Positions 1,807-12,412 of a stretch of DNA of 12,928 nt are shown here, piece by piece. The stretch's first letter is position 1; the number at the start of each line of letters is the position of its first letter. The DNA is taken from the NCBI GenBank assembly GCA_015655225.1, contig JAATFK010000707.1, positions 1-12,928 of the forward strand, written 5' to 3'. Position numbers and translations under genes: made by a program. This DNA is from Solirubrobacterales bacterium (GTDB lineage Bacteria; Actinomycetota; Thermoleophilia; Solirubrobacterales; Solirubrobacteraceae). A model generated the notes under the pieces. The model was not told the DNA's origin. It worked only from the letters and a program-made list of their open reading frames with translations, and ran no database searches.

Positions 1807-2598
1807 GTGATCGTGCCTCCTCCCCCCGGCGTCATGCCCCAGGCCGCCGTGCTCGGCGTCCCGCTCGCGATCACCGACTACGAGGGCGCGCTCGACTGGA
1901 TCGACGCCGCGATCGCGGCGGACGCGCGGGAGTACCTCTGCGTCGCCGCGGTGCACACAGTGATGGAGTCGCGCGACGACCCGGCGCTGCGAGCGGCCGT
2001 CGCGGGTGCCGCCTTCACGGTGCCCGACGGCCAGCCGCTCGCCTGGGCGCTCCGCAAGCTCGGGCACGACATCGACGCGCGCGTCTACGGCCCCGACCTG
2101 ATGGCCCACTCGCTCGCCCGCGCGGCGGGCACCGGCCAGCGCCACTTCCTCTACGGCGGGCGTGACCGCGCGGCGCTCGACGCGCTCACCGAGAAGCTGC
2201 GGGAGCGCTTCCCGGGACTCCAGCTGGTGGGCGGCTACGCGCCCGTCTTCCGCGAGCTGTCCGAGCAGGAGAGGGACGCCATCGCGGCCGAGATCAACGC
2301 GGCCAGACCGGACGTCGTGTGGGTCGGGCTGGGCGTGCCGCGGCAGGAGAAGTGGATGGCGGCGATGCGCGGGCGCCTCGACGCGCCGATCCTGATCGGC
2401 GTCGGCGCCGCCTTCGACTTCCACGCCGGGCTCGTCCCGCAGGCGCCGCCGTGGATGCAGAAGCGCGGGCTCGAATGGCTCTTCCGCCTGATCCAGGAGC
2501 CGCGCCGCCTGTGGAAGCGCTACGCGAAGCACAACCCGCGGTTCGTCGTCGGGTTCGCCCGGCAGTGGGCGGCGCACCGTCGGCGCACGCGCCGATAG
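1807..2598 (+). CDS. WecG/TagA/CpsF family glycosyltransferase
   Basis: Members of this GT26 family add the second sugar to an undecaprenyl-diphosphate-linked sugar, for example ManNAcA in enterobacterial common antigen or ManNAc in wall teichoic acid, at the inner membrane face. From the GTG at 1807 the protein is 263 residues, normal for the family. Visible motifs are VLGVPLAITDYEGAL at 15-29, FTVPDGQPL at 70-78 (D74 matches the catalytic Asp of the PDG motif), LGVPRQEKWM around 177-186, VGAAFDFHAG shortly after, and PPWMQKRGLEWLFRL followed by EPRRLWKRY near the C-terminus, the region thought to contact membrane. The start is uncertain: GTG 1807, GTG 1813 and ATG 1834 are all in frame and none has a ribosome site. 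I prefer 1807 because of the -10 box at 1793. The open frame extends upstream to 1030 but only as a shadow of the acyltransferase gene. Sugar specificity is unknown. Confidence 0.9.
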   Translation: MIVPPPPGVMPQAAVLGVPLAITDYEGALDWIDAAIAADAREYLCVAAVHTVMESRDDPALRAAVAGAAFTVPDGQPLAWALRKLGHDIDARVYGPDLMAHSLARAAGTGQRHFLYGGRDRAALDALTEKLRERFPGLQLVGGYAPVFRELSEQERDAIAAEINAARPDVVWVGLGVPRQEKWMAAMRGRLDAPILIGVGAAFDFHAGLVPQAPPWMQKRGLEWLFRLIQEPRRLWKRYAKHNPRFVVGFARQWAAHRRRTRR

Positions 2599-2613
2599 GG
2601 GCGGGTCGCCCGC
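2599..2613 (+). other. Small hairpin between the WecG-like and epimerase-like genes
   Basis: The 18-base gap contains GGGCG, 3 bases, CGCCC (2599-2611), with an alternative fold of GCGGG and CCCGC (2601-2613). It sits 3 to 5 bases before the ATG at 2617, where a ribosome site would be, and could dampen translation of the downstream gene. It may be no more than chance in such GC-rich DNA. Confidence 0.25.
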
Positions 2614-2616
2614 TCG

Positions 2617-3582
2617 ATGACGCGCGTCCTCGTGATCGGCGGCGCCGGGACGCTCGGCGCGGCGGTCGTCCGCCGGCTGCTGCCGGATCCCGCCTACGAC
2701 CTCCGCGTCGCCGACGCGCGCCCGGCGCCGCAGTGGCTGCGCGAGGGCTGCGAGATCGACCGCTCCGCCCTCGCCGAGCCGGGGCGGGCGCGGGCGGCGC
2801 TCGACGGCTGCTCGCTCGTGATCGACCTCGCCGACCGCCGGGCGGCAGGGCCGTTCACGCGGATCGAGGCCGACGGCGGCGTGCGCGTCGCGGTCCTGCG
2901 GGCCGCGCTCGACCTCGGCGTCGAGCGCTTCGTCTACGTCTCCTCCGGCGCGGTGCTGGAGCGCGCGACCGCGTTCCCGACGACCGAGGCGCACCTCGCG
3001 GGCTGCGCGCCGCCGACCGCCGCCGACGGTTTCTCGCAGCTGGCCGGCGAGGTCGCGTGCCGGGCCGCCCACGCAGAGCGCGGTCTGCCATTCACGATCT
3101 GCCGCGCGTGCGACGCCTACGGGACGCAGGAGCCGTTCGACGCCGAGCGCGGGCTCGCGCGCGACCTGCCGGGGCTGGTGGCGCGCGCGCTCGCCGGGGA
3201 GCCGGCACCGATGGACGACGGGGCCGAGGACGACGACGGCCCGGGGAGCGGCGCGCTCACGCACGTGGACGACGTCGCCGAGGGGATCGTCGCCGCACTC
3301 GCAGCACCGGCGGCGCTCGGAGAGGACTTCAACCTCGCGGGGCCGGAGGAGCTGACCCGCGGCGAGCTGACGCGGCTCGTCTGGGAGCTGTGTGGCGACG
3401 CCGAGCACGCGGCGGCCGCCACCGCGCCGACGACGCCACCCCGCGCGGGCGCGCGGCGCTGGCCGTCGGCCGAGAAGGCCCGCGCCGTGCTCGGCTGGGA
3501 GGCACGCACGAGCGTGCGCGACGGGATCGCGCGGCTGGCTGCCTGGCAGCGCGCGCACGACCCCGTCGCCGCCCGCCGCTAG
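2617..3582 (+). CDS. NAD(P)-dependent epimerase/dehydratase-like protein with lost catalytic dyad
   Basis: This 321-residue protein has the extended-SDR fold used by sugar-nucleotide epimerases and dehydratases. Residues 3-14 read RVLVIGGAGTLG, a clean GxxGxxG dinucleotide site (G8, G11, G14). VERFVYVSSGAV at 102-113 carries the usual serine region, and a THVDDVAEGI segment near residue 210-220 and a FNLAGPEELT segment match the family's C-terminal half. The place where YxxxK is expected, just before LAGE at 142-145, reads DGFSQ (137-141), so both the Tyr and Lys are replaced. An unusual acidic run, MDDGAEDDDG, precedes the HVDDVA motif. It probably binds a nucleotide cofactor but may not be a classical epimerase; a regulatory or structural role is possible. 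It lies 18 bases after the WecG-like gene, likely co-transcribed. Its substrate is not identifiable. Confidence 0.85.
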   Translation: MTRVLVIGGAGTLGAAVVRRLLPDPAYDLRVADARPAPQWLREGCEIDRSALAEPGRARAALDGCSLVIDLADRRAAGPFTRIEADGGVRVAVLRAALDLGVERFVYVSSGAVLERATAFPTTEAHLAGCAPPTAADGFSQLAGEVACRAAHAERGLPFTICRACDAYGTQEPFDAERGLARDLPGLVARALAGEPAPMDDGAEDDDGPGSGALTHVDDVAEGIVAALAAPAALGEDFNLAGPEELTRGELTRLVWELCGDAEHAAAATAPTTPPRAGARRWPSAEKARAVLGWEARTSVRDGIARLAAWQRAHDPVAARR

Positions 3583-3621
3583 CGTGCCGCGCACGGCACC
3601 GCGCCCGGGTCGCGTTACCGT
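3580..3621 (+). promoter_or_regulatory. Possible -10 boxes upstream of the GT2 gene
   Basis: Two TAnnnT hexamers lie in this gap. TAGCGT at 3580-3585 overlaps the stop codon of the preceding gene and would give a leader of about 40 bases. TACCGT at 3616-3621 is 10 bases before the ATG and would give a leader of only a few bases. Neither has a clear -35. The only Shine-Dalgarno-like bases, GGAG at 3625-3628, are too close to the ATG to be convincing. Confidence 0.3.
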
Positions 3622-3631
3622 CTCGGAGCCC

Positions 3632-4483
3632 ATGGAGTCCATCCCCGCCACGATCGTCGTCCCGACGCGCAATCGCGCCGACTATCTCGACGTCGCGCTC
3701 GCGTCGTTCGCGGCGCCCGTCGCCGCCGCCGGCGCCGAGGTCGTCGTCGTGCTCGACGGCCCCGACGCGGTCAGCGCCGCGGTCGCCGAGCGTCACGGCG
3801 CGCGCGTCGTCGCGCTGCCCCGCACGGCGGGCCCGAACGCCGCCCGCAACGCCGGCGTCGCGGCCGCTCGCGGCGAGCTGGTGATCTTCGTCGACGACGA
3901 TGTCGCCGCCCCGCCGACGTGGCTTCCGGCACTGCTTTCGGCGGCCGCCACGACGCCCGAGCGCGACGTCTTCGGCGGCCCGATCCGCGCCCGCATCGAG
4001 CGCGCCCACGTCGGCCTGCTCGGCTTCTGCGGACGCGATAAGCCGCCGCTGACGACGCTCGACGCCGGCCCCGCCGACCGCGACGTGGAGGTCGTCTGGA
4101 GCGCGAACCTCGCGATCCGCCGCGCCACGCTCGCGTCGGTCGGCGGGTTCGACGAGGCGATCGCGGTCGGCGCCGGCGACGAGGAGGAGTGGCAGGAGCG
4201 CTACCGCGCGAGCGGCGGCCAGGTCCGCTACGTCGCCGCCGCCGGGCTCGACCACCGTCGCACCCGCGAGGACGCGTCGCTGCGCGCGTTCATGCGCGCC
4301 GCCCACCACCGCGGCCGCGCCGGACGCCGCAACGACGCGCGCAAGGGCGCGGTGCCGCCGCTGAGCGCCGAGCTGCGCGTGCTCGCCGGGTGCCTCTGGC
4401 ACGTCGTGCGCCGCCGCTGCGCGAACGGCTTCGTGATGGCCGCGCACGCGACCGGGCGGATCCGCGAGGCGCTCGGGCGATGA
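3632..4483 (+). CDS. Family 2 glycosyltransferase (GT-A fold)
   Basis: GT2 enzymes transfer a sugar from a nucleotide donor to a growing lipid-linked glycan in the cytosol. The 283-residue protein starts ESIPATIVVPTRNRADYLDVAL, the typical first strand and PTRNR loop. GPNAARNAG follows at 67-75, and the metal-binding DxD region is VIFVDDDVAAP at 84-94 (D88-D90). WSANLAIRR at 156-164 and GGFDEA at 171-176 are standard acceptor-side motifs, and GDEEEW at 182-187 supplies the probable catalytic acid. The C-terminal 100 residues are basic, with Arg/His-rich segments that could sit at the membrane surface; there are no clear membrane spans. The ATG at 3632 is the first sensible start. Its stop overlaps the next gene's ATG, so the two are probably translationally coupled. 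Donor sugar is unknown. Confidence 0.9.
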   Translation: MESIPATIVVPTRNRADYLDVALASFAAPVAAAGAEVVVVLDGPDAVSAAVAERHGARVVALPRTAGPNAARNAGVAAARGELVIFVDDDVAAPPTWLPALLSAAATTPERDVFGGPIRARIERAHVGLLGFCGRDKPPLTTLDAGPADRDVEVVWSANLAIRRATLASVGGFDEAIAVGAGDEEEWQERYRASGGQVRYVAAAGLDHRRTREDASLRAFMRAAHHRGRAGRRNDARKGAVPPLSAELRVLAGCLWHVVRRRCANGFVMAAHATGRIREALGR

Positions 4484-5340
4484 GCGCGGACGCGGACGCG
4501 CCCCCGCCGCCGCGCTTCGACGCCGCCGGGGACGTGGTGGACGACTTCGCCTCGGGCGAGAGCGGGATCGTCGCCGGCGTGCGCCGGACGACCAGTACGG
4601 CGGTGCAGGACGCGCTCCTCGACGGGCTCGCGCTCGCGCGACTGGAGCCGTGGCGGCTCGCGCGCGCCGCCGCCTTCGCGCCGCCGCGCCGCCGCGTGCT
4701 GGCGCTCGGGATCGAGCGCGAGGACCGCGCGAACCTGATGGGCGCCGCGCGCGCCGAGCTGGCGCGCTCGCGCCACGACGTGGAGCTGGTCACGACGCCG
4801 GTCGGCGGTCGCGGCAAGTTCGAGAACCTCAACGCGCTGCTCGACGCGCATCCGTTGGAGGACCGCGACTGGCTGCTCGTGCTCGACGACGACGTGGCGC
4901 TGCCGCACGGCTTCCTCGACCGCTTCCTGTTCCTCGCCGAGCACTTCGACCTGCGGCTCGCACAGCCGGCGCACCGCCGCCGCTCGCACGCCGCCTGGCG
5001 GGTGACGCGGCGCCAGCCGCGCAGCGCCGTGCGGGAGACGCGCTACGTCGAGATCGGGCCGGTCAGCCTCTTCCACCGCTCGACGTTCGAGACGCTGCTG
5101 CCGTTCCCGGCGCTGCGCGCCGGCTGGGGACTCGACAACCACTGGGCCGCGCTGGCGCGCGAGCACGGCTGGCGGATCGGCGTCGTCGACGCGCTCCCGA
5201 TCCGCCACATCTCGCGGCCGATCGCCGACTCCTACCGGCGCGCCGACGCGGTCGCCGAGTCGCGCGCGTTCCTCGCGGAGCGGCCGTACGTGACCGCCGC
5301 CGAGGCGCAGCGGACGGTCGCGAGGCACGCAAAGTGGTGA
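4480..5340 (+). CDS. GT-A-like glycosyltransferase (putative), translationally coupled to the GT2
   Basis: The 286-residue protein begins at an ATG that overlaps the upstream stop as ATGA. The open frame runs farther upstream, but only as an out-of-frame shadow of the GT2 gene. After a 30-residue low-complexity acidic/Pro tail, the body shows RRRVLALGIEREDR at 70-83, GKFENLNALL at 112-121 and WLLVLDDDVALPHGFLD at 131-147. That last stretch is a good GT-A metal-site motif (D136-D138). IGPVSLFHRSTFETLLPFP at 192-210 and GWGLDNHWAALAREHGWRIG at 215-234 resemble the acceptor and catalytic-base region of GT-A enzymes, where an Asp (D219) follows GWG. HISRPIADSYRR near the end is also typical of such proteins. 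I assign it to the glycosyltransferases from these motifs, without placing it in a numbered family. It should act with the GT2 product on the same glycan. Confidence 0.75.
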   Translation: MSADADAPPPPRFDAAGDVVDDFASGESGIVAGVRRTTSTAVQDALLDGLALARLEPWRLARAAAFAPPRRRVLALGIEREDRANLMGAARAELARSRHDVELVTTPVGGRGKFENLNALLDAHPLEDRDWLLVLDDDVALPHGFLDRFLFLAEHFDLRLAQPAHRRRSHAAWRVTRRQPRSAVRETRYVEIGPVSLFHRSTFETLLPFPALRAGWGLDNHWAALAREHGWRIGVVDALPIRHISRPIADSYRRADAVAESRAFLAERPYVTAAEAQRTVARHAKW

Positions 5341-5464
5341 GGGACGAAGTGCAGCGAGCCGGAAGTCGCACGCCGCGCGGCGCGCCCGGCGAGGGCCGCG
5401 GGCGACTTCCAAGCGACGATCGCGACGGAGACGGCCGGAACCGTGCCACGGGAGAAGGCGCACG
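5341..5464 (+). repeat. Intercistronic inverted repeat before the GT4 gene
   Basis: The 124-base gap contains a perfect 9-base inverted repeat, GGAAGTCGC at 5361-5369 and GCGACTTCC at 5402-5410. The 32-base interval itself holds the palindrome CGCCGCGCGGCG (5371-5382). Together these could form a branched RNA structure. No T-run follows, so a simple terminator is unlikely. A good ribosome site, GGAGAAGG at 5451-5458, lies 6 bases before the ATG at 5465. No protein-coding sequence is apparent in the gap. Confidence 0.4.
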
Positions 5465-6649
5465 ATGACCGTCTCTGTCGCGATCGTCGCCGAGTACTAC
5501 CCTCGCGCCTCGGACCCCGTGCTCGGCGTCTGGGCGCACCGGCAGGCGCTTGCCGCGCGCGACGCCGGCGCCGAGGTGCGGGTGCTCGTCCTGCACCGGC
5601 CGCTGCCGCCGCTCGCGGCCGTCAGACGCGGCGACCTCGGCGCGCTGCGGGCCGCGTTGCGCCAGCCGCGCCACGCCCAGCTCGACGGGATCGAGGTCAC
5701 CTACGTCCCCTACCTCTCCCCACCGCGACCCTGGAGCTACGGCGCCTGGGGCGCGTGGGCGGCGCCGGCGCTGCGCCGAGCGCTGACGCAGCTCCACGGG
5801 CGCTTCCCGTTCGACCTCGTGCACGCCCACTACGCGGTCCCCGCCGGCGATGCCGTGCGACGGGCGCTGCCGGGCGTCCCGCTCGTCGTCTCGGTCCACG
5901 GCGGCGACGTGCTCGCGACCGTCGCCCGCGGTCCCTACGCGCGCCGCGTCGTGGCGCGCACCTTCGGCCACGCGCGGCTCGTGCTGGCCAACTCGGCCGG
6001 GACCGAGGCGCGCTGCCTTCCGCTCGGCGCCCGTGCGACGGCGGTCGTCCACCTCGGCACCGACCTGCCGCCGGCGAGCGCCGGCGAGCGCAACGCCGAC
6101 CACGCCCCCACCCTCGTGACGGTCGGCCACCTCGTCGCGCGCAAGCGCCACGCCGACGTGCTGGAGGCCCTCGCCCTGCTCGCCCCCACGCATCCACGGC
6201 TGCGCTGGGAGGTCGTCGGCGACGGCCCCGAGCGGGAGCCGCTGCGCGCGCTCGCACAGCGGCTCGGCGTCGCCGAACGGGTCACGTTCCTCGGGCAGCT
6301 GGAGCCGCGCGCGGCGCGTGAGCGCGCCTGGGCCGGCGACCTGTTCGTGCTGCCGAGCGTCGACGAGGCGTTCGGCGTCGCCTATGTCGAGGCGATGGCC
6401 GGCTCCGTTCCCGCGATCGGCTGCGCGGGCGAGGACGGCCCCGAGGAGATCGCCGCCGCCGGCGGCGGGCTCGTGCGCGTCGCCCGCCGCGACCCAGCGG
6501 CGCTGGCGGCGACGCTCGAGCGCCTGCTCGGCGATCCGGCCGAGCGCGCGCGGCTCGGCGCGGAGGCGCGCGCGACGGTGGAGCGGGCGTTCACGTGGGA
6601 GCGCTGCGGCGTCGCGATGGTCGCCGCCTACGAGCGCGCGGTCGCCTGA
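5465..6649 (+). CDS. Family 4 glycosyltransferase (GT-B fold, retaining)
   Basis: GT4 enzymes are retaining transferases that add sugars to lipid-linked or other acceptors in the cytosol. The protein has 394 residues, a usual length. The N-terminal acceptor domain starts VSVAIVAEYYPRASDPVLG, with VWAHRQA at 22-28 and DLVHAHYAVPAGDA at 117-130. VVSVHGGDVL at 141-150 is the conserved HGGD region. The donor domain shows LVTVGHLVARKRHADVLEAL at 217-236 (the Arg/Lys pair that grips the donor phosphates), VVGDGPEREPL at 250-260 and RVTFLGQLEP at 272-281. The EX7E motif is E301 to E309 in SVDEAFGVAYVEAM, and GPEEI follows. The ATG is preceded by GGAGAAGG at 6 bases, one of the few clear Shine-Dalgarno sites here. 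It is 124 bases after the coupled pair of transferases. A hairpin starting at its stop codon suggests transcription ends here. Confidence 0.93.
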   Translation: MTVSVAIVAEYYPRASDPVLGVWAHRQALAARDAGAEVRVLVLHRPLPPLAAVRRGDLGALRAALRQPRHAQLDGIEVTYVPYLSPPRPWSYGAWGAWAAPALRRALTQLHGRFPFDLVHAHYAVPAGDAVRRALPGVPLVVSVHGGDVLATVARGPYARRVVARTFGHARLVLANSAGTEARCLPLGARATAVVHLGTDLPPASAGERNADHAPTLVTVGHLVARKRHADVLEALALLAPTHPRLRWEVVGDGPEREPLRALAQRLGVAERVTFLGQLEPRAARERAWAGDLFVLPSVDEAFGVAYVEAMAGSVPAIGCAGEDGPEEIAAAGGGLVRVARRDPAALAATLERLLGDPAERARLGAEARATVERAFTWERCGVAMVAAYERAVA

Positions 6650-7000: not shown

Positions 7001-7684
7001 ATGCGCAGGCTCTTCCTCCCCATCGCGATCCTCCTCGCCGCGCTCGCGGCCGTGCTGCCGGCGACCGCCGGCGCGGTCTCGTCGAGCACGATCTACACCG
7101 ACTGCTCGCACTCCTCGACGGGCCTCTTGATCGGCACGTACCCGAAGTCGGCGCTGAAGAAGGCGCTCGACAGCATGCCGACCGACATCTCGGAGTACAG
7201 CGGCTGCTACGACGCGATCAAGCAGGCGCTGCTCGGCGCCAGCGCCGCGAGAGCGCACAGCACGACCGGCTCCAGCGGCCCCAACGCCAGCAGCCCCACC
7301 AGCGGCGGCTCCGGCGGGAGCAGCGCCGGCGGTGGCAGCGCGGGCGCGCCGACGACGAGCGGCGGCAGCACCGGCGGCTCGGCGGGCGGCACGTCGAGCA
7401 CCCCCGCGAACCCGTCGGGCGCGCTCGACAGCGCCGGCTCGGCCGGCACGAGTGCCGCGGCGGCCGCCGCGGCCGCGACGCCCGCGCAGCAGCACGTCGG
7501 CACGAACGCGCCCGTCAAGCTCGCCGGCGCCGAGATCAGCCCGGGCACGCTTCCCGCGATCACGCGCGACGGCCACGCCCTCCCGACCGCCGTGATCGTC
7601 TTCCTCGCCCTGCTCGGCGCCGGCGGACTGGCGATCGCGGGCTCGACCCTCGGGCGACGTGTCCTCGCTCGCCGCAGACCCTAG
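7001..7684 (+). CDS. Secreted, C-terminally anchored Gly/Ser-rich protein of unknown function
   Basis: I do not recognise a characterised family. The 227-residue protein has a clear signal peptide (MRRLF, a hydrophobic core at 6-20, likely cleavage after AGA at 23-25). A compact module at about 26-80 follows, with two cysteines (C35, C69) that could form a disulfide. It includes GTYPKSALKKALDSMPTDISEYSGC; similar small modules are, as far as I recall, common among hypothetical proteins of Thermoleophilia. Residues 85-160 are a Gly/Ser/Thr/Ala-rich linker ending in a run of eight alanines. A hydrophobic segment at 194-214 and a basic tail GRRVLARRRP complete it, giving an outside-facing, membrane-anchored layout. 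The linker could be glycosylated. It overlaps the following ligase-like gene by 26 bases, so the two are probably coupled and may cooperate. The start fits the signal peptide exactly. Confidence 0.75.
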   Translation: MRRLFLPIAILLAALAAVLPATAGAVSSSTIYTDCSHSSTGLLIGTYPKSALKKALDSMPTDISEYSGCYDAIKQALLGASAARAHSTTGSSGPNASSPTSGGSGGSSAGGGSAGAPTTSGGSTGGSAGGTSSTPANPSGALDSAGSAGTSAAAAAAAATPAQQHVGTNAPVKLAGAEISPGTLPAITRDGHALPTAVIVFLALLGAGGLAIAGSTLGRRVLARRRP

Positions 7685-9971
7685 GCCGGAGCCGGCGGAG
7701 GCGAGGGCGACACCGCCCGCCCGCCCGCTCCTCCGCTGGCTCGGCGCCCATCCCGACCCCCCGATCGCCGTCGCGCTCGCGGCGCTGCTGCTCGGGGCCG
7801 TCTTCGTCGCGCGCGGCTTCACCGCCGACAACGGCCCGGTCGGGCGCCTCACGACGACCGAGATCGCCGTCACGCTGCTCGGCGAGCTCGCCGCGACGGT
7901 CGCGGCGCTCGTGGCCCCGACCGGCCGGCGGCTGTGGGGCGGCGTCACCGTCCTGCTGCTGGCCGCGCTGACCGCCTACACGGCGCTCTCGATCATCTGG
8001 GCGATCGAGCCCGCGGGCGCGTGGGACGAGGCGAACCTCGCGCTCAGCTACTTCGCCGCGTTCGCGGGCGCCGCCGCGCTCGTGCGCGTCGCGCCGGCGC
8101 GCTGGAGAGCGCTGCTCGGCGCGCTCGTCCTGACGGCGGTCGTCGTCTCCGCCTACTCGCTGCTGACGAAGGTCTACCCGTCGATCGTCGCGGCCGCCTC
8201 CTACGCGCGCCTGCGGGCGCCGTTCGACTACTGGAACGCGGTCGGGCTGATGGCGGTGCTGGGGATCCCCGGCTGCCTCTGGCTCGGCGCGCGTCGCGAC
8301 GGCCACCCCGTGCTCGGCGCGCTCGCGGTGCCGGGGCTCGGCGTGCTGCTGACGGCGGTCGTGCTGTCGGTCGGCCGCGGGGCGCTGCTGGCGACGCTGT
8401 TCGTGCTCGTGCTGTGGTTCGCGGCCGTGCCGCTGCGACTGCGCAGCGCCGCGGTGCTCGCGACCGCGGGCGCCGGCGCGGCGATCGTGTCCGTCTGGGC
8501 GCTCTCGAACGACGCGCTGTCGAAGGACGGGGTCCCACAGGCGATCGCCGCGCGCGCCGGGCACAACCTCGGGCTGCTGCTGGTGGCGATGGTGATCGTC
8601 TTGGCGGTCGCGGGCCTGTTCCTCTCCTTCGCGATGGCGCGCTCGGCGATCCCGCCGCTGGGCCGGCGCCGGCTGGGGACGCTCGTGCTCGTGCTGGTCG
8701 CGCTCGTGCCGCTCGCGGGGATCGCCAGACTGGCGACCTCGGATCGTGGCCTGACGGGCTCGATCTCGCACGGCTGGCGGCAGCTGACCGATCCCAACGC
8801 GGTGCAGCCGGGCAACGACCCGAGCCGGATCGCGTCGGTCGGGAGCGTCCGCGCGCGCTACTGGAACGACGCCATCACGGTCGGGAAGCGGGCGCCGTGG
8901 ACCGGCGTCGGCGCGAACGGCTACGCGACCGCACGCGACGCGCTGCAGCCGACGCAGCTGCGGGTGACGCACGCGCACGGCTACGTGGCGCAGACGTTCG
9001 CCGACCTCGGCCTGATCGGGCTCGGCCTCAACGCCCTCGTGCTGGTCGCCTGGCTCGTCGCCGCCGGACGGGCGACCGCCCTGCGACGACCGCGATGGCT
9101 GCGCTGGCCGCGGACGTGGGCGATCCCGGGGCCGTGGGGCCGTCCGGCCGCGTCTGCCGCGCCAGCCGCCGCCGCGCCCGCCACCTACGCCCCGGCCCTC
9201 GGCGCGGGGACGCCCGCGGCCGCCGCGTACACGCCCGCGCCCGCCGCGTATGCGCCCGCCCCCGCGTACGCGCCGGCCCTCGCCGCACCGGCCGCCCACG
9301 CGCCGGCCCTCGCCACCCCGGCCCCCATCCCCGAGGCGACTCCCGAGCGGATCGGCCTGATGGCCCTCGCGATCACCGCGCTCGCGTTCTGCTTCCACTC
9401 GGCGATCGACTGGACCTACTACATCCCCGGCGACGCGCTGGTCGCCTGCCTCGCCGCGGGCTGGGTGGCGGGCCGTGGCCCGCTCGCCGACGTGCCGCCG
9501 GCCGGGCGACTGCCGCGCGGCTGGCGGATCGATCTGACACGCCTCGCGGTCGCCGTCACCGTGCTCGCCGCCGGCCTCGCGGCCGCGTGGGTCATCTATC
9601 AGCCGCAGCGCTCCGCGAACGCGAGCGGCGCGTCACTCGACGCGCTCTTCGACGGCCACGACGCGGCCGCCGTCAAGCTCGCCCAGAAGGCAGCGGACAT
9701 CAATCCGCTGTCGGTCGACCCGCTCGAGAGCCTCGCCTCCGCGCAGCAGGCGCAGAACCAGCCGGCTGCCGCGCTGGGGACGCTCGAACGCGCCGTCAGA
9801 CTGCAGCTGGCGAACCCCGAGCCCTGGCTCCAGCTCGGCACGCTCCAGCTCCAGCAGGGCCAGGCGAGAGACGCGGTCACGACGCTCGCGGCCGCGCTCT
9901 ACCTCGACCCCAGATCGCCGATCGCGCAGGACGAGTACGACAGAGCGCTCGCGGTCGCCAGCGGCGGCTAG
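7659..9971 (+). CDS. O-antigen ligase/polymerase-like membrane protein with C-terminal TPR domain
   Basis: Wzy_C/WaaL-type proteins polymerise or transfer lipid-linked glycans on the outer face of the membrane. This 770-residue protein has many membrane spans from about 36 to 470. SVGRGALLA at 237-245 carries a conserved-type Arg (R240). The large external loop contains RYWNDAI at 400-406, GVGANGY at 416-422 and THAHGYVAQTFADLGLIGLG at 437-456, with H438 and H440 in the position of the essential His. After span 451-469 comes a basic loop and an unusual Ala/Pro-rich insert with YAPA-like repeats (about 497-560). Three more spans follow (about 566-582, 590-604, 626-646), then TPR-like repeats (about 661-755; NPEPWLQLGTLQLQQGQARDAVTTL is typical). 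By the positive-inside rule the TPR part is outside. Start is GTG 7659, inside the preceding gene. Polymerase versus ligase (glycan or protein acceptor) cannot be settled from sequence. Confidence 0.85.
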   Translation: MSSLAADPRPEPAEARATPPARPLLRWLGAHPDPPIAVALAALLLGAVFVARGFTADNGPVGRLTTTEIAVTLLGELAATVAALVAPTGRRLWGGVTVLLLAALTAYTALSIIWAIEPAGAWDEANLALSYFAAFAGAAALVRVAPARWRALLGALVLTAVVVSAYSLLTKVYPSIVAAASYARLRAPFDYWNAVGLMAVLGIPGCLWLGARRDGHPVLGALAVPGLGVLLTAVVLSVGRGALLATLFVLVLWFAAVPLRLRSAAVLATAGAGAAIVSVWALSNDALSKDGVPQAIAARAGHNLGLLLVAMVIVLAVAGLFLSFAMARSAIPPLGRRRLGTLVLVLVALVPLAGIARLATSDRGLTGSISHGWRQLTDPNAVQPGNDPSRIASVGSVRARYWNDAITVGKRAPWTGVGANGYATARDALQPTQLRVTHAHGYVAQTFADLGLIGLGLNALVLVAWLVAAGRATALRRPRWLRWPRTWAIPGPWGRPAASAAPAAAAPATYAPALGAGTPAAAAYTPAPAAYAPAPAYAPALAAPAAHAPALATPAPIPEATPERIGLMALAITALAFCFHSAIDWTYYIPGDALVACLAAGWVAGRGPLADVPPAGRLPRGWRIDLTRLAVAVTVLAAGLAAAWVIYQPQRSANASGASLDALFDGHDAAAVKLAQKAADINPLSVDPLESLASAQQAQNQPAAALGTLERAVRLQLANPEPWLQLGTLQLQQGQARDAVTTLAAALYLDPRSPIAQDEYDRALAVASGG
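9141..9338 (+). repeat. Ala/Pro-rich repeat tract inside the ligase-like gene
   Basis: This segment encodes residues about 495-560, built of imperfect YAPA, YTPAP and HAPAL units. The DNA repeats are degenerate (GCGTATGCGCCC, GCGTACGCGCCG and similar). The predicted protein segment is flexible and probably cytosolic, between two membrane spans. Such tracts vary in length easily by slippage. Confidence 0.6.
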
Positions 9972-10807: not shown

Positions 10808-12328
10808 CTAGAACGCCCCGCGTCTCGTCAGCACGGCCGGGATCGTGCGCAGCAGGATCACGAGGTCGAGCGCGACCGACCAGCGCTCGAGGTAGAGGAA
10901 GTCGAGCCGCACGAGGTCGTCGAAGTCGAGGTCGGAGCGTCCCGAGACCTGCCACAGGCCGGTGATGCCGGGGAGCACGAGGTAGCGCTTCTTGTGCCAC
11001 TGCTCGAGTCTCTCGAAGTCCCGTAGCGGCAGCGGACGCGGCCCGACCAGCGACATCTCGCCGCGCAGCACGTTGATCAGCTGCGGCAGCTCGTCGAACG
11101 AGAAGCGCCGGAGGAGGCGGCCGACGGTCGTCAGGCGCGGGTCGTCGCGGATCTTGAAGAGCGCGCCGTCGGCCTCGTTCATCGCCTCCAGGTCCTCCTG
11201 CACCTGCTCCGCGTCGTCGTGCATCGTGCGGAACTTGAGGCAGTCGAACGGCAGGCCGCCCATGCCGGGACGGATCGAGCGGTAGAGGATCGGCCCGCGC
11301 GAGGTGAAGCGCACCGCGAGCGCGATCACGATCAGCAGCGGCGACAGCAGGAACATGATGAGCGACGCGCCGACGAGGTCGAACGCGCGCTTGAGCGCGT
11401 AGTCGATCCCCTCGAAGACGGGCGGGCGGAGCGTGAAGAGCGGGACCGACTGACCCGGCACGAACTCGGCGCGCTGTACCAGGATCTCCATCGTCGAGGG
11501 CGCGATGTGGACGTCGACGCCGCGGCGGTGGCAGAGGTCGACCAGCTCGACCGCCTGCTCCTGCGGGAAGTCGGGATCGGCGATGATCACCTCGCCGACG
11601 CGGTCGCGGTCGAGCACCTCGCCCAGCTCCGCGAGCGTGCCGAGCGAGCGCAGGCCGTTGTCGGGACGGGGCGTCAGCGAGATGTAGCCGACCGCCTCGA
11701 CCTCCGCGCCGGGCGAGGCGGCAAGCGCGTGCGCGACCGCGTCGATGTGCTTGCCGGAGCCGACCAGCAGCGCGCGGCGGCGGTAGCCGGCCTTGCTCAG
11801 CAGCCAGCCCGTCACCTGCGTGTGCGTCCACCGCAGCGACGAGATGTAGACGATCGCGAAGCCGAGCGAGGCGTAGAAAATGTAGAAGCTCTGGTAGTGC
11901 TGGCCGCTGGCGATCGCGAAGATCACGGCGACGACCATCACCTGGAAGAGCGAGCCGACGATCCGCGTCAGGCCCGGCCGGCGCGGGCGATCGGCGTACA
12001 GGTCCGAGCGGGCGAACAGCAGCACCGTCACGAGGACCGCGAACGCGAGCGAGTCGCGCGTCTGCCCGGAGGCGAGGTGGACGCTGTGGCTGAAGGCGCC
12101 GTTGTCCTTGATCACGGCCTTCAGCAGCAGCGCCGTGAAGAGGGCGAGCCAGACGCCCGCGAAGTCGATCGCCAGCAGCGACGCGATCCGCAGCAGTCTG
12201 CGGAGCGTCTCGAGGCGCAGAAGGAACGACAGGACTGGCGGTCGCTTGCGTCGGACATCGCGCTCGGGCAGGACCGCCACCGCTACTCCAGGCTTCTTCT
12301 GTTCGTAGTTCAGGGCGCCGTTCGCCAC
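10808..12328 (-). CDS. Polyprenyl-phosphate sugar-1-phosphate transferase (initiating glycosylphosphotransferase, WbaP/WcaJ type)
   Basis: This enzyme starts glycan assembly by moving a hexose-1-phosphate from a UDP-sugar to undecaprenyl phosphate at the inner membrane face. From GTG 12328 the protein is 506 residues. Several hydrophobic spans lie within about 45-165. A Rossmann-like domain (RRALLVGSGKHI at 184-195, EVIIADPDF at 246-254) follows. The catalytic module runs from about 314 to the end: KRAFDLVGASLIMFLLSPLL, LKFRTMHDDAE at 364-374, DELPQLINVLRGEMSLVGPRPLP around 412-434 and LPGITGLWQVSGRS around 452-465, all signatures of bacterial sugar transferases. The frame is open to GTG 12400, but GTG 12328 has GGAGGT 10 bases upstream and a TAGCGT -10 box behind that, so I prefer it. 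Glucose versus galactose specificity is not readable. It follows the epimerase-like gene on the same strand. Confidence 0.93.
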   Translation of the reverse strand: MANGALNYEQKKPGVAVAVLPERDVRRKRPPVLSFLLRLETLRRLLRIASLLAIDFAGVWLALFTALLLKAVIKDNGAFSHSVHLASGQTRDSLAFAVLVTVLLFARSDLYADRPRRPGLTRIVGSLFQVMVVAVIFAIASGQHYQSFYIFYASLGFAIVYISSLRWTHTQVTGWLLSKAGYRRRALLVGSGKHIDAVAHALAASPGAEVEAVGYISLTPRPDNGLRSLGTLAELGEVLDRDRVGEVIIADPDFPQEQAVELVDLCHRRGVDVHIAPSTMEILVQRAEFVPGQSVPLFTLRPPVFEGIDYALKRAFDLVGASLIMFLLSPLLIVIALAVRFTSRGPILYRSIRPGMGGLPFDCLKFRTMHDDAEQVQEDLEAMNEADGALFKIRDDPRLTTVGRLLRRFSFDELPQLINVLRGEMSLVGPRPLPLRDFERLEQWHKKRYLVLPGITGLWQVSGRSDLDFDDLVRLDFLYLERWSVALDLVILLRTIPAVLTRRGAF

Positions 12329-12338
12329 TGTTTCGTGC

Positions 12339-12344
12339 ACCTCC
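12339..12344 (-). promoter_or_regulatory. Shine-Dalgarno site deciding the glycosylphosphotransferase start
   Basis: On the minus strand GGAGGT lies 10 bases before GTG 12328. It is the strongest ribosome site in the window and argues against the longer frame starting at 12400. Confidence 0.65.
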
Positions 12345-12353
12345 AGCACTACA

Positions 12354-12359
12354 ACGCTA
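12354..12359 (-). promoter_or_regulatory. Putative -10 box of the glycosylphosphotransferase gene
   Basis: TAGCGT (minus strand) within GCTAGCGTTG predicts transcription start near 12347, giving a leader of about 19 bases that contains the GGAGGT site. The longer GTG start at 12400 would lie upstream of this promoter. The 10-base context is identical to that at 6954-6963. Confidence 0.45.
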
Positions 12360-12362
12360 GCG

Positions 12363-12393
12363 CCGGCCGGATGTTCCGTACTTTCTCGGCCGG
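12363..12393 (-). repeat. Inverted repeat upstream of the glycosylphosphotransferase promoter
   Basis: CCGGCCG (12363-12369) and CGGCCGG (12387-12393) are 7-base complements separated by 17 comparatively A/T-rich bases. The repeat is between the epimerase-like gene's stop and the putative -10 box. It could be a terminator for the upstream gene or an operator; no T-run is present. Confidence 0.35.
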
Positions 12394-12412
12394 GCTGCAC
12401 GTTCCTGTGCGC

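Follow-up and report, generated by a model that had tools for sequence, protein, structure and literature searches.

In the window, by which we mean the whole stretch of 12,928 nucleotides analysed here, the gene of a small secreted and anchored protein overlaps the start of a gene coding for a WaaL/Wzy_C-like protein with a C-terminal TPR domain, and this pairing is strongly conserved in the family to which the window belongs. As the best single explanation we propose, at a likelihood somewhat short of even, that the WaaL-like enzyme acts as a glycan ligase, with the small protein as its anchored acceptor. The open-access literature, searched by title and start of abstract, yielded no paper on this gene pair and none on surface polysaccharide retention in Thermoleophilia.

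A gene pair in a polysaccharide locus

The window is part of a polysaccharide locus (Table 1). WecG, the epimerase, the GT2-like genes and the GT4 gene are followed by the small gene, the WaaL-like gene and a GntR regulator, the initiating transferase being encoded on the opposite strand. The assembly (729 contigs, 77% completeness) is akin to Conexibacter, and a close homologue carries the name Conexibacter sp. The 26-base overlap of the two genes noticed in the first-pass annotation is confirmed by the coordinates of the open reading frames. The overlapping GTG start is credible because the next in-frame ATG, GTG or TTG codon of the large frame lies only at residue 85, past the first membrane helices, and because the N-terminus M-S-[ST]-x-A is found again in several relatives. 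Since the same 26 nucleotides code for the Arg-rich tail of the small protein, the conservation of this tail may partly reflect dual coding.

Table 1. Features of the window and of the two paired proteins
Feature	Position	Strand	Basis or remark
WecG, epimerase, two GT2-like, GT4	1858..6649	+	polysaccharide genes 5' of the pair; Pfam
Small secreted, anchored protein, 227 aa, ATG start	7001..7684	+	ORF
Signal peptide	7001..7075	+	sequence; helix 5-18 in model; cleavage after residue 25 is an estimate
Helical two-cysteine module, residues 28-85	7082..7255	+	C35 at 7103-7105, C69 at 7205-7207
Ser/Thr/Gly/Ala-rich linker, residues 86-193	7256..7579	+	composition; predicted hairpin at 172-179
LPTAV motif, transmembrane helix, Arg-rich tail	7580..7681	+	sequence, model; tail overlaps start of large gene
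WaaL/Wzy_C-like ligase or polymerase, C-terminal TPR, 770 aa, GTG start	7659..9971	+	ORF, PF04932
H-A-H motif	8970..8978	+	second His (H440) invariant in 31 orthologues (A4)
TPR domain, residues 650-770	9606..9968	+	predicted outside the membrane
Initiating sugar-phosphate transferase (Bac_transf)	10808..12400	-	PF02397, 208 bits

Conservation of the pairing and change of partner

In the family of the window, the class-1 set comprises, among the matches listed, 106 ligase places in 105 genomes at E <= about 1e-42; the short pieces of G037 and G090, the second pieces of G060 and G131, the weaker paralogues and the diverged ligase of G061 (genus g16, locus L197, no small gene called) are left out of it. 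At 94 of these 106 places, among the matches listed, the small gene lies directly upstream on the same strand, i.e. 91 tabulated small-gene matches together with G116, G087 and G112, recognised on closer reading. Two further places (G110 and G093) stop at a contig edge and are not assessable, and the ten that are without the small gene all belong to genus g16, where it is present at 2 of 12 places. Outside g16, it is found at 92 of the 92 assessable places among the matches listed, with the reservations that the genera sampled are not independent of one another (G132 and G133 seem almost identical), that gene calling relied on a simple script based on codon usage, which misses some small genes, and that many genomes are fragmented. 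The co-occurrence in Thermoleophilia that the first-pass annotation had put forward as a check is strong, and the outcome that it expected to speak against the pair, orthologous ligases generally lacking the small neighbour, is contradicted by these 92 places. Starting from the small gene, the first 29 loci of homologues have a ligase match alongside (29/29), and a single-sequence search finds a small-protein homologue in 107 of 146 family genomes. A script check of 75 distinct class-1 ligases found a same-strand small gene called upstream of 58; in 43 of these 58 pairs the genes overlap, the overlap measuring 20-40 nt in 38 and exactly 26 nt in 20. The other 17 ligases are nine of g16, two at a contig edge and six misses of the gene caller, for which the small gene is shown by other searches.

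Loci of classes 2 and 3 were drawn from that match listing as well and separated by HMM score. Class 2, a second ligase group inside the family, consists of 19 loci among the matches listed, eight picked via the small match and 11 via the ligase alone. The pair is head-to-head in all eight loci picked for a known small match (L132, L134, L135, L224-L228) and in seven of the 11 picked by the ligase alone, among the matches listed; the small genes of L225 and L227 are taken from genome-search coordinates rather than from the gene caller, and L209 is a weak match (E 4e-5). The four misses (L199, L202, L206, L207) are all of g16; in them the ligase keeps an nrdJ-like gene at its side, identified by eye (Pfam nrdJ being found only in L109, L115 and L134), and the small gene is gone. 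In the case of the class-3 Wzy_C paralogues, none of 15 has the small gene, among the matches listed. As a separate observation, a secreted, S/G-rich and C-terminally anchored protein without the module is encoded upstream of a class-3 ligase (L212:2339-2872) and is perhaps an unrelated analogue; its profile match is weak (E 0.03) and the locus is counted as having no small gene.

Over the whole class, a profile search finds a small-protein homologue in 249 of 399 genomes. Among loci picked by the small match, the ligase is alongside in 13 of 13 in the other families of the order, and is divergent within 29-441 bp in 16 of 18 in other orders, the small gene of L097 being taken from search coordinates; the two loci not counted as pairs are L118 and L111, whose ligase is about 2.4 kb distant. 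The distant families present a ligase followed by the small gene (L249, L250), a small gene overlapping the ligase that follows it (L253) or a divergent pair (L257, L259-L262, L265, L266, L268); in L251 and L252 the small gene is not directly paired with a ligase, in L263 and L267 a ligase stands without a called small gene, and in L256 neither is called. Members of the small family are without a ligase in the fetched stretch in L127-L131, L133, L251, L254, L255 and L258. A sample of 396 genomes of the phylum gave 28 with a match, 24 of them in-class; the four out-of-class matches cover only profile positions 64-180, largely linker, and no module turned up beyond the class in this sample.

Several neighbourhoods deserve a record of their own. 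In family f5, the small-family genes of L254, L255 and L258 are divergent from two sugar-nucleotide dehydratase-like genes, one of which was Pfam-scanned, and a type I signal peptidase gene can come after the small gene (by Pfam in L117, L257 and L266, from gene position only in L114). L128:4447-5617 and L130:3603-4745 code for proteins with the module in tandem, in which the C-terminal region is another one and a membrane helix is lacking; a cofactor F420 ligase gene lies near that of L128.

In genus g16, the small gene is found beside a same-strand PMT_2 glycosyltransferase gene in 10 of 16 small loci, where the PMT gene was identified from Pfam (L150, L155) or from similarity (all others); three of these loci have one further gene in between, a GT4 where scanned (L151). 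L187, in which the PMT gene adjoins a small match that holds a stop and is not called, is not counted, and no PMT gene stands beside the small gene of L152, L153, L185 (contig edge), L186 and L190. The polysaccharide locus of G031 holds a PMT_2 gene, separated by five genes from the small one, as well as a Wzx-type flippase and a UDP-sugar dehydrogenase. WaaL-like and PMT_2 enzymes are both expected to use lipid-linked sugars at the outer face of the membrane. Secreted glycosidase-like proteins, recognised by similarity, flank the PMT_2 and small genes in L150, L151, L155, L182-L184, L188, L189 and L191; the three that were scanned have no Pfam match, and in L253:415-3327 a WaaL-like protein is fused to a glycosidase-like C-terminal domain related to them.

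Architecture of the two proteins

The succession of signal peptide, two-cysteine module, Ser/Thr/Gly-rich linker and C-terminal anchor, as first annotated, is seen in the sequence of the small protein and in its AlphaFold2 model. The N-terminus is hydrophobic and the C-terminal tail reads RRVLARRRP. The mean pLDDT of the model is 65, with block means of 82-91 for residues 31-80; a helix is predicted at residues 196-224, and the linker is mostly disordered, with low pLDDT over most of its length. C35, Y66 and C69 are invariant in a 33-row alignment of relatives (A1); in a wider alignment (A6), Y66 is the sole invariant of the three, and other clades have cysteines at other positions. Since these positions shift between clades, the cysteine pair suggests a structural disulphide rather than a catalytic role. 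The linker of the window protein counts 108 residues, with 31% S+T and 21% G; over the members examined, linkers range from 11 to 115 residues and from 6% to 60% S+T. The best-conserved parts of the family are the module and the membrane boundary, to which the cytoplasmic tail is added in class 2; the head-to-head-class proteins L132:4028-4786, L134:4315-5052 and L135:4177-4932 have a conserved cytoplasmic tail ending in DWVRLGR. The family is undescribed: the small protein matches no family of Pfam or NCBIfam at E<=1, and comparison with the PDB gave no convincing likeness.

No LPXTG-type motif precedes the C-terminal helix of the window protein, which has LPTAV instead. At this place, LPxP[LIV]-like residues prevail among the family members examined, and those of g23 have LPxT[LVM]. 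Four distant homologues (L249-L252) end with a sortase-type LPFTG or FPFTG, L251 and L252 giving weak, sub-threshold matches to LAXTG/NPXTG-type models and L249 none. Sortase PF04203 is present in 26 of 27 hand-picked genomes, that of the window included. Judging from these sequences, the anchor of the window lineage may perhaps be a former sortase-type signal turned membrane anchor. In G025, a sortase gene (L220:2191-2895) is divergent from a class-3 Wzy_C gene. That the small protein is a PEP-CTERM/exosortase substrate is not supported, exosortase PF09721 being found in none of 21 genomes, among them that of the window (77% complete).

The large protein matches PF04932 with 40.3 bits for a cut-off of 31.7, and the 31 members of alignment A4 all match it at E<=0.01. 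It combines a core of WaaL-like membrane fold with the TPR domain, i.e. the Wzy_C plus C-terminal TPR architecture of the WsfB type. Pfam contains PglL-type models, and no PglL model (PglL_A/PglL_B motifs) is among the 13 families found at E<=1 in the scan of the window. H440, R240 and R398 are invariant in the orthologue alignment. The functional residues of E. coli WaaL are R215, R288 and H338, according to the available part of PMC3643930. The TPR domain would lie outside, as indicated by the predicted helix count with the Arg-rich loops placed inside. The TPR region is kept in ligases with and without an adjoining small gene, although fewer of those from g16 and from the head-to-head class show a recognisable one.

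Acceptor, polymerase subunit or tether

In the model that we propose, the pair would act last in a pathway for a lipid-linked glycan. The initiating transferase, WecG and the glycosyltransferases of the locus would assemble sugars on a lipid carrier, and these would then be flipped outward. The WaaL-like protein would move the chain onto the exported small protein, whose disulphide-held helical module would fold outside and whose C-terminal helix would keep the protein in the membrane. The membrane-anchored small protein would thereby retain the glycan at the cell surface.

We prefer this explanation because the small gene is paired with enzymes expected to face outward and to transfer glycans, and because precedents exist for its parts. 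The acceptor of WaaL is the lipid A core; the actinobacteria considered here are taken to be monoderm. The large protein shares the membrane fold of the WaaL O-antigen ligase (PDB 7TPG) and differs from it by the extra TPR domain. WsfB of Paenibacillus alvei, from the glycan locus of a monoderm, also combines Wzy_C with a C-terminal TPR and is a predicted S-layer protein O-transferase, PglL being described alike (PMC2943079, available part); this likeness is drawn from descriptions rather than sequences, the target of WsfB is an S-layer protein, and that part of the source describes no small-protein counterpart. The PglL/PilO/ComP-type O-OTases are WaaL-family enzymes with an adjoining acceptor gene: in 21 of 31 cases, according to the available part of PMC3643930, a pglL gene adjoins a pilin gene or lies not far from it, and in A. 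baylyi ComP was tested as a target of this kind. Unlike them, the large protein of the window has no match to a PglL model, and neither Pfam nor NCBIfam identifies its small neighbour as a pilin. GspA of Actinomyces oris is an actinobacterial surface protein, wall-anchored and glycosylated by LcpA (PMC6381275, available part), and the sortase-type C-termini of the distant homologues recall it; its enzyme is however an LCP phosphotransferase and not a WaaL-like one, and the small protein of the window has no LPXTG.

The idea of an acceptor is strengthened by the second association, with PMT_2, and by the sortase-type C-termini of the distant homologues. The occurrence of the small gene in several gene orders and beside two unrelated enzyme types, and its absence from the 15 class-3 loci among the matches listed, support it, and the LPFTG/FPFTG ends and the sortase of 26 of the 27 picked genomes are as expected for surface display. 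Against it stand the linker, which is neither conserved nor always S/T-rich, the g16 ligases that persist without an adjoining small gene, the small genes without a ligase in the fetched stretch, and the failure of PglL-specific models to match the large protein. The first-pass annotation had proposed a glycan-acceptor pair with the linker as a possible acceptor. The pair gains from the pairing, the PMT_2 link and the sortase-type ends; the linker is unsupported in this role, since with its variable length and composition, and S/T contents of just 6-8% in some members, it cannot be the universal acceptor. Recruitment of the small protein by the TPR domain, also put forward there, is likewise unsupported, the TPR region being kept whether or not a small gene adjoins.

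The main rival is possible, if somewhat unlikely: polymerisation in the pathway would be the task of the Wzy_C protein, and the small protein would be an accessory subunit that would bind it through the module or membrane helix and set the length or the retention of the chain, in the manner of the co-polymerases of Wzy. No second Wzy_C-like gene showed up in the extended G031 and G006 loci (by comparison with the window protein and a Pfam scan of some genes only), G031 has the Wzx-type flippase, and conservation falls on the module, the membrane boundary and the class-2 cytoplasmic tail rather than on the linker, a pattern that suits a protein partner no less than an acceptor. Alone, however, a subunit of the polymerase leaves the PMT_2 pairing and the distant sortase-type signals unexplained. 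It is clearly improbable that the small protein carries no glycan and is a non-covalent tether or wall-associated scaffold for the ligase or the finished polymer; the stalk-plus-anchor architecture, the family copies without a nearby ligase and the helix-free module proteins of L128 and L130 would agree with such a role, but the pairing is specific to two Wzy_C classes and absent from the third, among the matches listed. That the two genes are neighbours through a shared operon history only is highly improbable, for although gene order is largely conserved in the polysaccharide loci looked at, the two genes stay together in unrelated surroundings (beside nrdJ), and the small one is met again next to PMT_2 and in several gene orders.

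In its widest form, which we offer tentatively and hold to be rather unlikely as a whole, the acceptor model would make of the module, stalk and anchor one acceptor family serving either WaaL-like enzymes with TPR or PMT-type enzymes, with an anchor that has drifted between sortase signal and membrane helix, and thus an undescribed surface-glycan anchoring system of Thermoleophilia. If the small protein is an acceptor, the two genes code for a new WaaL-like protein-ligase pair, and the switch of partner to an enzyme of the PMT type would serve as a natural experiment on the requirements of an acceptor. A dedicated acceptor would offer a testable handle on the retention of surface polysaccharide in this class of soil bacteria.
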